From positions 1-33,296 of IMG/VR virus record IMGVR_UViG_3300044634_002449: a stretch of 33,296 nt of DNA. One strand, given 5' to 3'. This DNA comes from a virus. Shown piece by piece: positions 394 through 25,165 of this stretch. Position 1 is the first letter of the stretch. Each line of letters starts with the position of its first letter. The position numbers and the translations under genes were made by a program. The notes under the pieces are model-generated. The model worked only from the letters and a program-made list of their open reading frames with translations, ran no database searches and was not told where the DNA came from.

Positions 394-467
394 GGAGACA
401 TAGCTTAGTTGGTTAAAGCCCCAAACTCATAATTTGGTAATCGTAGGTTCGAGTCCTACTGTCTCTA
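394..467 (+). tRNA. tRNA with CAT anticodon (elongator Met, or Ile2)
   Basis: A full cloverleaf can be drawn: acceptor 394-400 with 460-466 (first pair is a G-T wobble), D stem GCTT/AAGC around a 9-nt loop, anticodon stem CCAAA/TTTGG around loop CTCATAA, a 5-nt variable region, T stem GTAGG/CCTAC around TTCGAGT, and discriminator A467. No CCA end is encoded. The anticodon is CAT. The anticodon stem lacks the three G-C pairs of initiator tRNA, so this is elongator tRNA-Met or, if the wobble C is lysidine-modified, tRNA-Ile2. I cannot separate these by eye. Phage tRNAs usually supplement host decoding. Confidence 0.93.
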
Positions 468-487
468 CAGATATTTTTTAAAAGCTA

Positions 488-1639: not shown

Positions 1640-1660
1640 TTGCCATCGCCGAACTTTAAA

Positions 1661-1751
1661 AAGGACAAAACCCAATCAGAGGCGGATCCGATTGGGTTCT
1701 GCTGATCTTACGATCATGTACTGGGAACATGTGGGATGCTACGACCAGTAC
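1661..1751 (-). ncRNA. Candidate small RNA of about 90 nt with promoter and terminator
   Basis: On the - strand a TTGACT-N17-TACAAT promoter predicts a start at G1751. The transcript would begin GUACUGG, which pairs with CCAGUAC (1724-1718), forming a 5' hairpin starting at nucleotide 1 with a 20-nt loop. Next comes UGAUC-GUAA-GAUCA (1716-1703), a 5-bp stem with a GNRA-type tetraloop. The unit ends with a perfect 9-bp stem AACCCAATC/GATTGGGTT (1698-1669), then TTGTCCTTTTT. Promoter, 5' structure and terminator all line up within about 125 bp, and no reading frame of note lies inside. The preceding leftward gene stops at 1802, just upstream of the promoter. No RNA family is recognised; function is unknown. 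Confidence 0.65.
1669..1698 (-). terminator. Leftward intrinsic terminator
   Basis: A 9-bp perfect stem (AACCCAATC at 1698-1690, GATTGGGTT at 1677-1669, read leftward) with a 12-nt loop is followed on the - strand by TT-GTCC-TTTTT. It would end both the small-RNA unit and any read-through from the lysin operon. On the + strand no T run follows, so it is directional. Confidence 0.75.
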
Positions 1752-1757
1752 TCATTA

Positions 1758-1786
1758 ATTGTAAAATATTCTATATACTAAGTCAA
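1758..1786 (-). promoter_or_regulatory. Leftward promoter of the candidate small RNA
   Basis: On the - strand TTGACT (1786-1781), a 17-nt spacer and TACAAT (1763-1758). The -35 lies in TAGTTGACT, the same extended motif as the rightward promoters at 243 and 1043. The predicted start, 7 nt after the -10, is G1751, the first base of an inverted repeat. Confidence 0.72.
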
Positions 1787-2337: not shown

Positions 2338-2892
2338 CTAATAGTCGAATTCATTTACGAATTCTTTAAATCTTTCCCCGTTAAAGGAAGACCATGATGA
2401 CCAATCTTTTCCGCCTTTAGTCATATAATACGTTATCTCTGAGTTTATTACTGGATCAAACAATAGAATGTTTGACTTTAATTCAAATTTTTCTTTACGA
2501 TCAATGCCGAGTTCACCCAACATATTAATCTGAAAAATTCCGTAGGAACTGTCTCCAGTTTTCCTGTTACCATTGTAAGCCATAGGCCTTGCATTGGATT
2601 CTGACTTAGCAATAGCCCAAGCCATTTTAAGGGCTTTTCCTTCAAAACCAACAGCTGATAAAAGTTCTTTTAGTTCTTTGTCTGTTAGATTCTCAGAAGG
2701 CTTGTACACAGTAGTGCTGTACTTCTCTAAGGTTTCTTTCTTTAGTTGTACCGTTGATTTTACAGGTACTTCTACCTGCAATGCTTGAGTTTCTGTTGGA
2801 CCAGGCTGGACTGTAAACAAGAATAATGTTATCATTCCTATATAAGACCAGTTATGGGCAACTTCGCTCAAACGTTCTTTGATTCTCTCCAT
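2338..2892 (-). CDS. Membrane-anchored lysozyme-like transglycosylase (endolysin)
   Basis: This is a 184-aa peptidoglycan hydrolase of the lytic-transglycosylase/lysozyme-like fold. A membrane or signal-anchor segment spans about residues 15-28, then a linker, then the catalytic domain from about 70. AIAKSESN carries the likely catalytic Glu (about residue 98) and GDSSYGIFQIN (about 113-123) is the signature that shapes the substrate cleft. It would cleave glycan strands of the host wall. The second ATG is chosen because AAAGGAGG lies 8 nt upstream of it and only 2 nt from the first. The N-terminal anchor suggests export without full dependence on a holin, as in signal-anchor-release endolysins, though no SAR-specific feature is proven. 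Confidence 0.83.
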   Translation of the reverse strand: MERIKERLSEVAHNWSYIGMITLFLFTVQPGPTETQALQVEVPVKSTVQLKKETLEKYSTTVYKPSENLTDKELKELLSAVGFEGKALKMAWAIAKSESNARPMAYNGNRKTGDSSYGIFQINMLGELGIDRKEKFELKSNILLFDPVINSEITYYMTKGGKDWSSWSSFNGERFKEFVNEFDY

Positions 2893-2925
2893 TGGCATTT
2901 CCTCCTTTAGAGATAACGAACTATA

Positions 2926-2978: not shown

Positions 2979-3989
2979 GTGGAATTATCTTATTATACTA
3001 TTAGAGCAGGACTTAATCCTTCTGTTGGATTTGGCTATGCTGGACAAAATATAGTTAATACGCTACAAAAATTAGGGCATACTGTTAAATTTGCAAGCCC
3101 TAAACCTCCAGTACAGATAAACTTTACACAACCCCATCATTTTAAATTACATAAAAATCAATATCAAATTGGTTATACTCCATGGGAATCCACTTTAATT
3201 AGATCTGAGTGGAGAGATATATTTAATCAATGTGATGAAGTTTGGGCAACATCTGATTGGACGGCGGAGGTATATAAAAACAATGGTGTTACTAAACCTA
3301 TTTATGTATATCCACATGGCATTGAACCTATATGGAAGCCATACAAAAGAATTTTACATCCAGGAAAACCACTTAAATTTTTACACATAGGAGAACCTTC
3401 TCCAAGAAAAGACGGACAGCTAGTTGTAGATACTTTTATAAAATTATTTGGAAATAACCCAGAATATCATTTAACAGTTAAATGTCATGGAACTTCAACT
3501 ATTAGAATATATAATAATAGAAAAGAACTTGTCTCTCCAGATACTGTATATAGTAATATTTCAATAATTAAAGAAGAGTACACAATTGAACAGCTGGTTC
3601 AACTTTATCATATGCATCATGTTTTAGTATATCCAACCTGGGGAGAAGGTTTTGGATTTATTCCCCTACAAGGACTTGCAACTGGCATGCCAGTAATTTC
3701 AACATATGATTGGGCACACTATAAAAAATTCCTAGGACCCCTAAAGTTAAAGTCAAGGTTAACAGATGCTTCAAAAGAAGGTGTTCCAAAAGCTGTAGGA
3801 GATTCCCACCTTGGAAGTTTTTATGAGCCAGATAAAGAACATTTAGTTGATCAAATGGTTCATGCAGCAGTTAACTTTAAAGCTTATTCTAATTATTACT
3901 ATACCCAGTCAACTAAAATACATGAAGAATATAATTGGGTTCAGTTGACCAATAATGCATTTAGTCACATATTTAAAAAGTTTTCATAA
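2979..3989 (+). CDS. Glycosyltransferase, GT4-like, with altered EX7E motif
   Basis: The 336-aa protein has the two-domain GT-B outline: an N-terminal acceptor domain with the glycine-rich GFGYAG loop near residues 18-23, and a C-terminal sugar-nucleotide domain with LHIGEPSPRKDG and YPTWGEGFGFIPLQG. In GT4 enzymes the second segment is EX7E; here the first Glu (E223) is kept but the second is Gln (Q231). It would transfer a sugar from a nucleotide donor to an unknown acceptor, perhaps phage DNA, a virion protein or host surface glycan. The start is GTG with AAAGAG about 4 nt upstream; the N-terminal beta strand MELSYYTIRAG needs this start. Its promoter is unclear. It sits alone between the lysin operon and nrdJ. 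Confidence 0.8.
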   Translation: MELSYYTIRAGLNPSVGFGYAGQNIVNTLQKLGHTVKFASPKPPVQINFTQPHHFKLHKNQYQIGYTPWESTLIRSEWRDIFNQCDEVWATSDWTAEVYKNNGVTKPIYVYPHGIEPIWKPYKRILHPGKPLKFLHIGEPSPRKDGQLVVDTFIKLFGNNPEYHLTVKCHGTSTIRIYNNRKELVSPDTVYSNISIIKEEYTIEQLVQLYHMHHVLVYPTWGEGFGFIPLQGLATGMPVISTYDWAHYKKFLGPLKLKSRLTDASKEGVPKAVGDSHLGSFYEPDKEHLVDQMVHAAVNFKAYSNYYYTQSTKIHEEYNWVQLTNNAFSHIFKKFS

Positions 3990-3993
3990 CCTC

Positions 3994-4022
3994 TTCACAC
4001 TTTAATAAAAGTTTGGTAGAAT
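3994..4022 (+). promoter_or_regulatory. Promoter of nrdJ
   Basis: TTCACA (3994-3999), exactly 17-nt spacer, TAGAAT (4017-4022), with TGG extended -10 (4014-4016). The start near 4029 gives a leader of about 47 nt that contains a small hairpin ACGAC-TAC-GTCGT (4049-4061) just before the AAAGAG ribosome site at 4064-4069. The hairpin could influence initiation. Confidence 0.75.
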
Positions 4023-4075
4023 TGGTATCTTACTAAAAATTAAATCAAACGACTACGTCGTAGAAAGAGTGTATT

Positions 4076-21972: not shown

Positions 21973-23568
21973 ATGAGTTTAGACATAAACAAAGTAGTAA
22001 TTGTTGGTGGTGGTTCCGCTGGGTGGATGTCGGCAGCAACTTTTATAAGAACTTTTCCAGATAAAGAAATTATAGTTATTGAATCACCAGACTACCCTAT
22101 AGTAGGAGTAGGTGAGTCTACACTTGGAAGCATTACTGAGTGGACTAATTACATAGGTTTAGACGAAAAAGATTTTATGCCAGCAACAGATGCTGTTTAT
22201 AAAATGAGTATTAAATTTACTGATTTCTATAAAGAAGATTCTGGAAGTTTTCATTACCCATTTGGAGATCCATTTCTTGAAGGAACATACAATGGTCTAA
22301 ATGACTGGTATGTAAAAAAAGCTTTATATCCAAATTTAGATGTATCAGATTATGCCAAAACATTTTTCCCAGCACTAACATTAGCAGAACAAAATAAACT
22401 ATCATGGAATAAATCTGGTAGACTTTATAATTTTAATTTTAAAAAAGACGTAGCCTATCATTTTGACGCTACAAAATTTGGTATATGGCTAAAAAATAAT
22501 TATTGTATTCCAAGAGGCGTTAAAGTTTTACCATTAACTGTTAATGAAGTTAAATTAAATGAAGATGGCGTAGAAAGTTTAATTTTAAGTAATGGAGATT
22601 CAATATCTGCAGACCTTTTTATAGACTGTACTGGATGGAAGAGCCTACTTCTTGGAGAAGCATTAAACGAGTCTTTTGATGATTATTCTCATCAGCTTCC
22701 AAATAATCGTGCATGGGCAACAAGAATTCCTTATACGGATATCGAAAAAGAAATGGAGCCATTTACAAACTGTACCGCTATAGAAAATGGATGGGTTTGG
22801 AATATTCCTTCATGGGAAAGAATAGGAACTGGGTATGTATATTCAGATAAATATGTTACGCCAGAAGAAGCATTAGTAGAATTTAAAAATTATTTACGTT
22901 CTGATAAAATGACTATTCCAGATTCTAATAGAGATGTAGATTCTTTTGAGTATAAAGATATTAAGTTTAGAATAGGAATCCATAATAGGGTTTGGGTAAA
23001 GAATGTAGTAGCAATTGGTTTGTCTGCTGGATTTATTGAGCCGCTAGAATCAAATGGATTATTTACAGTACATAAATTTTTAATGAAACTTATGAAATCT
23101 TTAAATAGAGGATCAGCAAATCAGTGGGATAAAGATGCATTTAATATAGCTTCAAGAATGGTTTACCTGGAGTTCAAGGATTTTGTAGCAATGCACTATG
23201 CCTTATCAAATAGAACCAAAACAAAATATTGGCAAGATATAGCAAAAAGATCTTTTAATTTACCAATGAAAGATGAAAATCCATTAACACCTATGACGTT
23301 TACAGACTTGGCTGCAAGAAAAATAAATATAAATAGATATGAACCAAATGCTGGAATGAACTGCATCGCTACTGGAATGAATTATTTTCCAGTTGATAAA
23401 ATGACAATTACTGGTTGGGAGCATGCAGAAGGAGTAAACTATTATAAAGAATGTGAGCTAGCTTTTAAAAATTGGGAACTTATGAGAAAAGATTGGCAGG
23501 ACGAAGCAGATTCATCTCCTACAATGTATCAATGGCTAAAAGATAATAGGCACAATGATAAAGCCTAA
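21973..23568 (+). CDS. Flavin-dependent halogenase (tryptophan-halogenase family)
   Basis: This 531-aa enzyme should use reduced FAD, oxygen and a halide to halogenate an electron-rich substrate. The dinucleotide-binding GGGSAGW (12-18) is at the N-terminus, VGVGEST (44-50) follows, the conserved lysine that guides hypohalous acid is K77 in YKMSIKF, the W274-x-W-x-I-P279 family signature is intact, and EPLES carries E359 and S360, matching the second catalytic residue of PrnA-type enzymes. Length is normal and no frameshift is seen. The substrate is unknown. A flavin reductase is not encoded nearby and would come from the host. Cyanophage halogenases of this family are known, so phage carriage has precedent. 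The gene has its own promoter and overlaps the next gene. Confidence 0.93.
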   Translation: MSLDINKVVIVGGGSAGWMSAATFIRTFPDKEIIVIESPDYPIVGVGESTLGSITEWTNYIGLDEKDFMPATDAVYKMSIKFTDFYKEDSGSFHYPFGDPFLEGTYNGLNDWYVKKALYPNLDVSDYAKTFFPALTLAEQNKLSWNKSGRLYNFNFKKDVAYHFDATKFGIWLKNNYCIPRGVKVLPLTVNEVKLNEDGVESLILSNGDSISADLFIDCTGWKSLLLGEALNESFDDYSHQLPNNRAWATRIPYTDIEKEMEPFTNCTAIENGWVWNIPSWERIGTGYVYSDKYVTPEEALVEFKNYLRSDKMTIPDSNRDVDSFEYKDIKFRIGIHNRVWVKNVVAIGLSAGFIEPLESNGLFTVHKFLMKLMKSLNRGSANQWDKDAFNIASRMVYLEFKDFVAMHYALSNRTKTKYWQDIAKRSFNLPMKDENPLTPMTFTDLAARKININRYEPNAGMNCIATGMNYFPVDKMTITGWEHAEGVNYYKECELAFKNWELMRKDWQDEADSSPTMYQWLKDNRHNDKA

Positions 23569-24106: not shown

Positions 24107-25165
24107 ATGCGTTTTCATGTGGTAAGTCTTCCACATACTCAAACGACTAAAGAGTATGTCAATTGCGCCTTTACTGAAAAAGTAAGGCGCTTTTGTCTTA
24201 TGATGAAAGACTTAGGGCATGAGGTTTACCTATATGCTGGTGAACAAAACGAGGCTCCATGTGATGAATTAATTACTTGTATATCAGATCAAGAAAGAAT
24301 TGATGGGTTAGAAGGTAAACATTTTACCTCCGCTTCATTTGATATTAAACAGCCTTACTGGGATAAATTCTTAAATACCGTAATAAAAGAAATTGGCCCG
24401 CGCCTTCAGCAAAAAGATTTTATATGTTTAATTGGCGGGACATCTCATAAGCCAATAGCAGATGCCTATCCAGAACATATGTCAGTAGAGTTTGGAATAG
24501 GATACGGATCCAGCTTTGCTAAATATCGTGTATGGGAATCTTATTCTTGGATGCATTCATCTTATGCTGCATATAAAGATCCAACAAAAGTTGACGGATT
24601 ATTTTATGATACAGTAATCCCAGGATATTTTGAACCAGAAATGTTTCCATTCCAGCCAGATAAAAAAGATTACTATCTTTATATTGGCAGAATGATAGAA
24701 CGTAAAGGCGTAGATATTGCATCTCAAATGTGTAAAGATATTGATGCTAAATTAATTATGGCAGGACCTGGAGATTACATTCCAAAATACGGTGAATATA
24801 TTGGAGCTATTGATTCTGATAAAAGAGCAGAATTAATGGGTGGAGCAATTGCAGTTTTAGCACCGACAACATATATAGAGCCATTTGGAAACATTGTTCC
24901 AGAAGCACATTTTTGCGGAACCCCAACAATTACAACAGACTGGGGAGCATTTGTAGAAACAAATCCAAACGGAATAACTGGATATAGATGCAGAACCTTA
25001 GATGAATTTTGCAAAGCGGCGGAAGACGTTAAGAAATTAAACCCTCAAATAATACATGATCGTGCTATGGCCACATACTCAGTAGATGTTATAAAATATA
25101 AGTATGAGAAGTATTTTAAAGGCCTTTTAACGCTATGGGACCAAGGATGGTACACAAGATTATAA
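24107..25165 (+). CDS. Glycosyltransferase, GT4 type
   Basis: This 352-aa GT-B-fold enzyme has an N-terminal acceptor domain (about 1-180), YLYIGRMIERKGVD starting the donor domain near 191, and the EX7E motif intact in IEPFGNIVPEAHFCG, followed by GTPTITTDWGAFVE. It should transfer a sugar from an activated nucleotide donor. The acceptor cannot be read from sequence; virion protein, DNA or a halogenated metabolite are candidates given its neighbours. It follows the 84-aa gene by 3 nt and ends 24 nt before a leaderless fibre gene. It differs clearly from the first glycosyltransferase at 2979, which lacks the second Glu. Confidence 0.85.
   Translation: MRFHVVSLPHTQTTKEYVNCAFTEKVRRFCLMMKDLGHEVYLYAGEQNEAPCDELITCISDQERIDGLEGKHFTSASFDIKQPYWDKFLNTVIKEIGPRLQQKDFICLIGGTSHKPIADAYPEHMSVEFGIGYGSSFAKYRVWESYSWMHSSYAAYKDPTKVDGLFYDTVIPGYFEPEMFPFQPDKKDYYLYIGRMIERKGVDIASQMCKDIDAKLIMAGPGDYIPKYGEYIGAIDSDKRAELMGGAIAVLAPTTYIEPFGNIVPEAHFCGTPTITTDWGAFVETNPNGITGYRCRTLDEFCKAAEDVKKLNPQIIHDRAMATYSVDVIKYKYEKYFKGLLTLWDQGWYTRL

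Follow-up and report, generated by a model that had tools for sequence, protein, structure and literature searches.

A conserved phage RNA gene whose invariant terminator loop may act on the translation of replication genes

The DNA analysed here, referred to as the window, is the IMG/VR virus record IMGVR_UViG_3300044634_002449 at its full length (33,296 bases, positions 1 to 33,296). Its minus strand carries a unit that is best read as a free-standing gene for a noncoding phage RNA of about 95 nt, equipped with a host-type sigma70 promoter and its own terminator. The comparison of related contigs gives good support to a structured RNA family, whose member in the window is predicted to be read leftward, starting near 1751 and ending near 1658. 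With regard to function, the reading that is favoured here, with modest confidence, is that of a small RNA (sRNA) which would regulate the translation of phage replication genes through an antisense loop. The part of the RNA under the strongest constraint, as judged from the aligned copies, is its terminator loop, AUCCGCCU.

The putative sigma70-type promoter (1758..1786, minus strand) comprises the −35 element TTGACT (1786-1781), a 17-nt spacer and the −10 element TACAAT (1763-1758), and its position predicts the RNA start at G1751. The modelled RNA of 94 nt (1658..1751, minus strand) begins with hairpin P1 (1718..1751), in which a 7-bp outer stem GTACTGG/CCAGTAC (1751-1745 with 1724-1718) encloses a conserved GGUYG/CUCC internal loop and the inner stem AGCAU/AUGUU. 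It is followed by hairpin P2, TGATC-GTAA-GATCA (1703..1716), and by the terminator hairpin (1665..1702), which has 16 pairs (1702-1687 with 1680-1665) and a T-rich tail at 1664-1658. The proposed antisense seed (1680..1687, minus strand) consists of the loop UCCGCC (1686-1681) and the closing A-U pair, and UCCGCC is unpaired in the predicted folds, as would be expected of an accessible seed of a trans-acting, base-pairing sRNA. An SLT-domain lysin-like gene (2338..2898) lies upstream on the same strand. The assembled RNA folds with −40.1 kcal/mol (z = −6.8; none of the 200 shuffles was equally good) and scores 100.6 bits with covariance model R1, whereas the complementary strand folds much less well (z = −3.3). 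A sequence-only reading of the window had already placed the promoter, the start, the outer stem of P1 and the P2 hairpin where they were located here, and its structured RNA of about 90 nt is supported at a slightly greater length. The terminator with its T-rich end also lies where that reading had put it, but the stem, described there as 9 bp, extends to 16 pairs around the 6-nt loop. No function had been given, and neither the constraint on the terminator loop nor the recurrence of its complement at gene starts, described below, had been recognised.

Relatives were retrieved via the neighbouring SLT-type lysin gene, and since this gene alone served as the query, they were not selected for the presence of the RNA. 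The unit was found beside the same lysin gene in well over 100 IMG/VR phage contigs. Among the loci fetched with the lysin, 70 of 80 carry the RNA downstream of it, on the same strand and 0.5-2.2 kb away; in nine of the ten others the sequence stops within 1 kb past the lysin, and L066 alone extends farther. Moreover, 26 of 27 long contigs contain a single strong match, and the RNA is present in all four contigs longer than 100 kb that were found through the polymerase (G017, G039, G047 and G050), in two of which it has been retained although the lysin is just 58-59% identical. The distinct copies are 71 to 98% identical to the window and keep the promoter and the hairpins, as the sequence-only reading had anticipated for a genuine unit. 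The promoter stands at a fixed distance, with exactly TTGACN-N17-TANNNT in 93 of 115 distinct copies.

A covariance model was built from 15 copies and then used to align 58 diverse ones, a procedure which fits the alignment to the structure and biases it in that direction. In this alignment 94.9% of the base-pair cells are paired and two-sided changes occur at 26 of 33 pairs, so that the compensatory changes proposed earlier as a check are indeed present. The covariation score reaches 0.472, against 0.182 in shuffled alignments and at most 0.096 when the structure is slid along the sequence; the MAFFT alignment of the 15 copies agrees (0.411, against 0.203 shuffled and at most 0.085 slid). In P1, all 12 modelled pairs change on both sides, with 98.1% of cells paired, and the apex is variable while the GGUYG/CUCC internal loop is kept. 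All five modelled pairs of P2 change on both sides as well; its loop in relatives is of the GNRA type or UUCG/UUAG on rewritten stems, and in some lineages P2 is missing. The promoter at a fixed distance and the compensatory changes in the stems are the marks of a structured small RNA gene, and it is this conservation and covariation that decisively support a real gene rather than a chance arrangement.

Promoter-like and terminator-like sites are not above chance in the region (25 found against 18.0 expected, and 2 against 1.8, in shuffled sequence), and because such sites occur at the frequency of shuffled sequence, a single element of either kind proves nothing alone. These scans, and the position of the site between leftward lysis genes and rightward small ORFs, would suit a mere terminator or insulator between convergent operons with a promoter arisen by chance. 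This explanation is, however, largely refuted and hardly credible, as termination requires neither a promoter at fixed spacing, nor two additional covarying hairpins, nor an invariant loop. A gene for a small peptide was also considered and rejected, since the indels between copies are not multiples of three and therefore no reading frame is conserved.

The constraint on the terminator loop is visible even when the copies are chosen without reference to it. In a scan that selected by P1 only, GGATCCGCCTC was kept in 61 of 64 distinct real copies, and one copy of the 64 (L249) is the sole one with a changed loop. In L201 and L204 the stem has been altered by compensatory pairs with AUCCGCCU unchanged, and the same loop sits on unrelated terminator stems in two remote lineages (G047 and G050), which lack P2. 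Since the loop is kept while the stems differ, it appears to be selected for more than termination. The changed copy, L249:180-279 (minus strand), has the loop UCAUCC and one broken stem pair, and may be a natural variant or an error. A second hairpin with GGATCCGCCTC, consisting of the terminator only, lies in L150:1361-1454 (minus strand), about 1 kb from a complete RNA gene.

The P1 internal loop is conserved together with the terminator loop even in the remotest copies, and antisense pairing by the terminator loop leaves this unexplained. It could be accounted for if the GGUYG/CUCC internal loop and the UCCGCC loop of a structured RNA bound a protein or the ribosome without any base-pairing target. 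We regard this as very unlikely, because particular gene starts repeatedly carry a perfect complement of the loop. The sample for this search consisted of ten relatives of 80-115 kb and all fetched loci, with gene functions of ribonucleotide reductase (RNR), the 68-aa protein, the DnaB-like helicase and DnaE assigned via PHROGs. At several early genes and at those of RNR, the DnaE polymerase, the DnaB-like helicase and the 68-aa protein, the complement, (A)GGCGGA, either covers the Shine-Dalgarno sequence or closely precedes it. Upstream of 5,605 distinct gene starts, GGCGGA was observed 163 times against 57 expected from coding sequence, whereas GGTGGA was observed 31 times against 52 expected; in the longer form, AGGCGGA persists within gene families, with 124 starts in 24 families, and AGGTGGA does not, with 13 starts in 10 families. 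As C and T should both mismatch the ribosome at this position, the preference for C argues for another partner. The C is also retained in boxes where A would pair better with 16S rRNA, and the predicted duplex of loop and box is stronger (−12.9 to −13.8 kcal/mol) than the one these leaders would form with the 16S tail (−5.7 to −11.0 kcal/mol). The loop was also considered as a mimic of the 16S 3' end (GGAUCACCUCC compared with GGAUCCGCCUC), a candidate which was rejected because its pairing with AGGAGGA is weak (−7.2 against −12.9 kcal/mol).

Strong retention of the box is limited to four of the 58 largest gene families. It is present in 93 of 105 RNR leaders, in 29 of 42 copies of the 68-aa protein (phrog_5189), in 36 of 48 distinct DnaE contexts and in 19 of 44 copies of the DnaB-like helicase, and only weakly at the primase (4 of 48). 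In small early genes, roughly 65, 134 and 135 aa long, the box directly precedes the start, sometimes as a tandem pair, and remote lineages retain it at RNR, DnaE, DnaB and the 134/135-aa genes, some of them in tandem. In the early gene of about 135 aa of G020, G047 and G050, the tandem GGCGGA boxes abut the start codon, for example AGGCGGAAGGCGGAATATG. Some DnaE starts overlap the upstream gene at its end; of the 28 distinct sequences of this class, 20 encode the Gly-Gly pair as GGC GGA and two as GGA GGA, the better Shine-Dalgarno, while the next Tyr codon varies 16:12. Thus, conserved complementary sites are found on mRNAs away from the RNA locus, with the exceptions given below. In two Stanwilliamsviridae phages without the RNA, AGGCGGA stands at 1 of 446 starts, in genomes whose base composition differs.

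In the favoured reading, the terminator hairpin would display UCCGCC, flanked as AUCCGCCU, as a preformed antisense seed, with P1 and P2 as a 5' cap structure and spacer. The loop would pair with the GGCGGA boxes at or just upstream of the Shine-Dalgarno of the genes of RNR, DnaE, the DnaB-like helicase, the 68-aa protein and some early genes, most likely blocking ribosome binding, and one RNA would thereby tune or shut down the replication module jointly. The opposite direction may also be considered: on pairing with the same boxes, the RNA could activate the mRNAs or make them more stable, for instance if it opened the hairpin in the RNR leader or shielded 5' ends. Most RNR leaders hold GGCGGA within a CCGC-n3-GCGG hairpin that precedes the apparent Shine-Dalgarno, so that pairing could open the structure and leave the start uncovered. 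However, the position of the Shine-Dalgarno itself is overlapped by the box at DnaE, DnaB, the 68-aa gene and the early genes, and pairing there would be expected to keep ribosomes away. Activation is therefore quite unlikely and repression the more likely direction. The case for the targets is correlational, and we infer transcription, pairing in vivo, the direction and timing of the effect and independence from Hfq.

Several observations weigh against regulation of the phage replication genes through the loop. GGC GGA is the commonest Gly-Gly dicodon in these phages (22%), and one class of DnaE starts has its GGCGGA within the end of the upstream gene; for this dicodon bias and the relatedness of the sequences, the binomial p of 5e-8 for GGC GGA is overstated. 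Gene starts were chosen by a simple script, and related sequences are non-independent. In the RNR leaders the box belongs to a small hairpin and does not cover the probable Shine-Dalgarno, and the RNR leader of the window lacks GGCGGA, its hairpin being a different one. In G017 and G038, the RNA is intact and the DnaE box absent. Those contigs selected by DnaE and without the RNA that were checked are devoid of the lysin region too and are therefore fragments, and since the RNA and the boxes are both near-universal in the family, it offers no natural comparison in which the RNA is absent. The window itself contains no convincing target, and none of the remaining proposed target genes was seen within these 33 kb. 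In G002, which is closely related to the window, boxes are found at DnaE and DnaB as well as at the genes of 68 and 135 aa. The loop has eight matches within two mismatches in the window on both strands (2.5 expected), and pairing with the plus strand was rejected as a target, because the matches lie mostly inside coding sequence. In the RNR leader of the window (4020-4075, plus strand), the hairpin is CGACTACGTCG; most relatives have CCGCnAGGCGGA there.

In agreement with the earlier remark that no phage RNA family with this layout was known, no Rfam family matches the RNA at gathering or relaxed thresholds. The best sub-threshold match in the region, ctRNA_pGA1 (RF00236), has a similar hairpin and terminator layout but reaches 18.8 bits against a gathering score of 45, so that the RNA is not a member. 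An exact-pattern scan for the RNA across 84,980 prokaryote species genomes was empty, and when the region and the RNA were compared by blastn with 50,697 phage records, two chance matches of 19 nt were the only result. The nearest isolates by DnaE are Stanwilliamsviridae; with covariance models R1 and R2, BillNye and Samisti12 had no match, and the one in Sham, of 18.3 bits, is at chance level. No description of this RNA was found in a literature search that mostly did not extend to subscription papers. It is therefore best read as an RNA outside any curated family that would act in trans, in the manner of an antisense sRNA whose seed is a loop. DnaE relatives occur in Streptomyces phages (57% aa identity), which suggests a host among the Actinomycetota; the host search through RNR returned five unrelated MAG contigs only. 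Phages of Ca. Nanopelagicales exist as isolates (PMC10202952). Actinomycetota are not known to have Hfq, and the action of the sRNA is probably independent of it.

The same loop could instead act in trans on host mRNAs, or on rRNA, with the phage GGCGGA boxes unrelated to it. An invariant loop fits a fixed host target, and C-rich hairpin loops directed at G-rich ribosome-binding sites are a familiar sRNA design; such pairing, without Hfq, has been proposed for the 6C RNA of Actinobacteria and the staphylococcal UCCC-motif sRNAs. The RNA described here shares this design but is phage-borne, has no Rfam match to 6C and carries one invariant UCCGCC loop with phage replication genes as apparent targets. 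A further precedent is PreS (LPR1) of phage lambda, an Hfq-dependent sRNA of about 88 nt that acts on the host dnaN mRNA (PMC12197685). Compared by description, both are small free-standing phage RNAs tied to DNA replication and acting, or predicted to act, in trans; here, however, the replication leaders of the phage itself are the apparent targets, the terminator loop is the proposed seed, and nearly all members of a phage family carry the RNA. Because these leaders hold the exact complement, in a family-specific manner and with C kept over A or T, a host target is the less convincing explanation and an unlikely one. Regulation of the phage's own genes has precedents in the sar RNA of P22 and the OOP RNA of lambda, antisense RNAs that lower phage gene expression (PMC12197685). 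Those are transcribed opposite a single target, whereas most apparent targets of the RNA of the window lie far away from it, and it would reach several genes via a shared short box.

Elsewhere in the window, a tRNA-Met gene (394-468, plus strand, anticodon CAT), the sole Rfam match of the whole window, adjoins the small rightward ORFs. A tryptophan halogenase gene (21973-23568, plus strand; PF04820, E = 3.8e-99) lies within the phage structural region, and two phage genes have glycosyltransferase matches (2979-3989 and 24107-25165, both plus strand).

A function is known for few phage sRNAs; the majority of those described stem from E. coli-type hosts that have Hfq, and many have the host or one antisense gene as their target. 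The RNA presented here is near-universal in a large uncultured family of freshwater phages, whose bacterial hosts are probably actinobacteria, is absent from Rfam and the isolate collections searched, and brings a concrete hypothesis of several target genes. We tentatively propose, with some doubt, that it is a core riboregulator: one Hfq-independent sRNA would govern how the replication genes of the phage itself (RNR, polymerase, helicase and accessory genes) are translated, by way of a GGCGGA box common to their ribosome-binding sites, the boxes being kept at the cost of ideal Shine-Dalgarno pairing. The RNA may thus be a single switch for viral DNA copying. If this is true, the phage coordinates its replication genes via one RNA and a common ribosome-binding-site box, and the loop and box together would be a signature for finding similar circuits.
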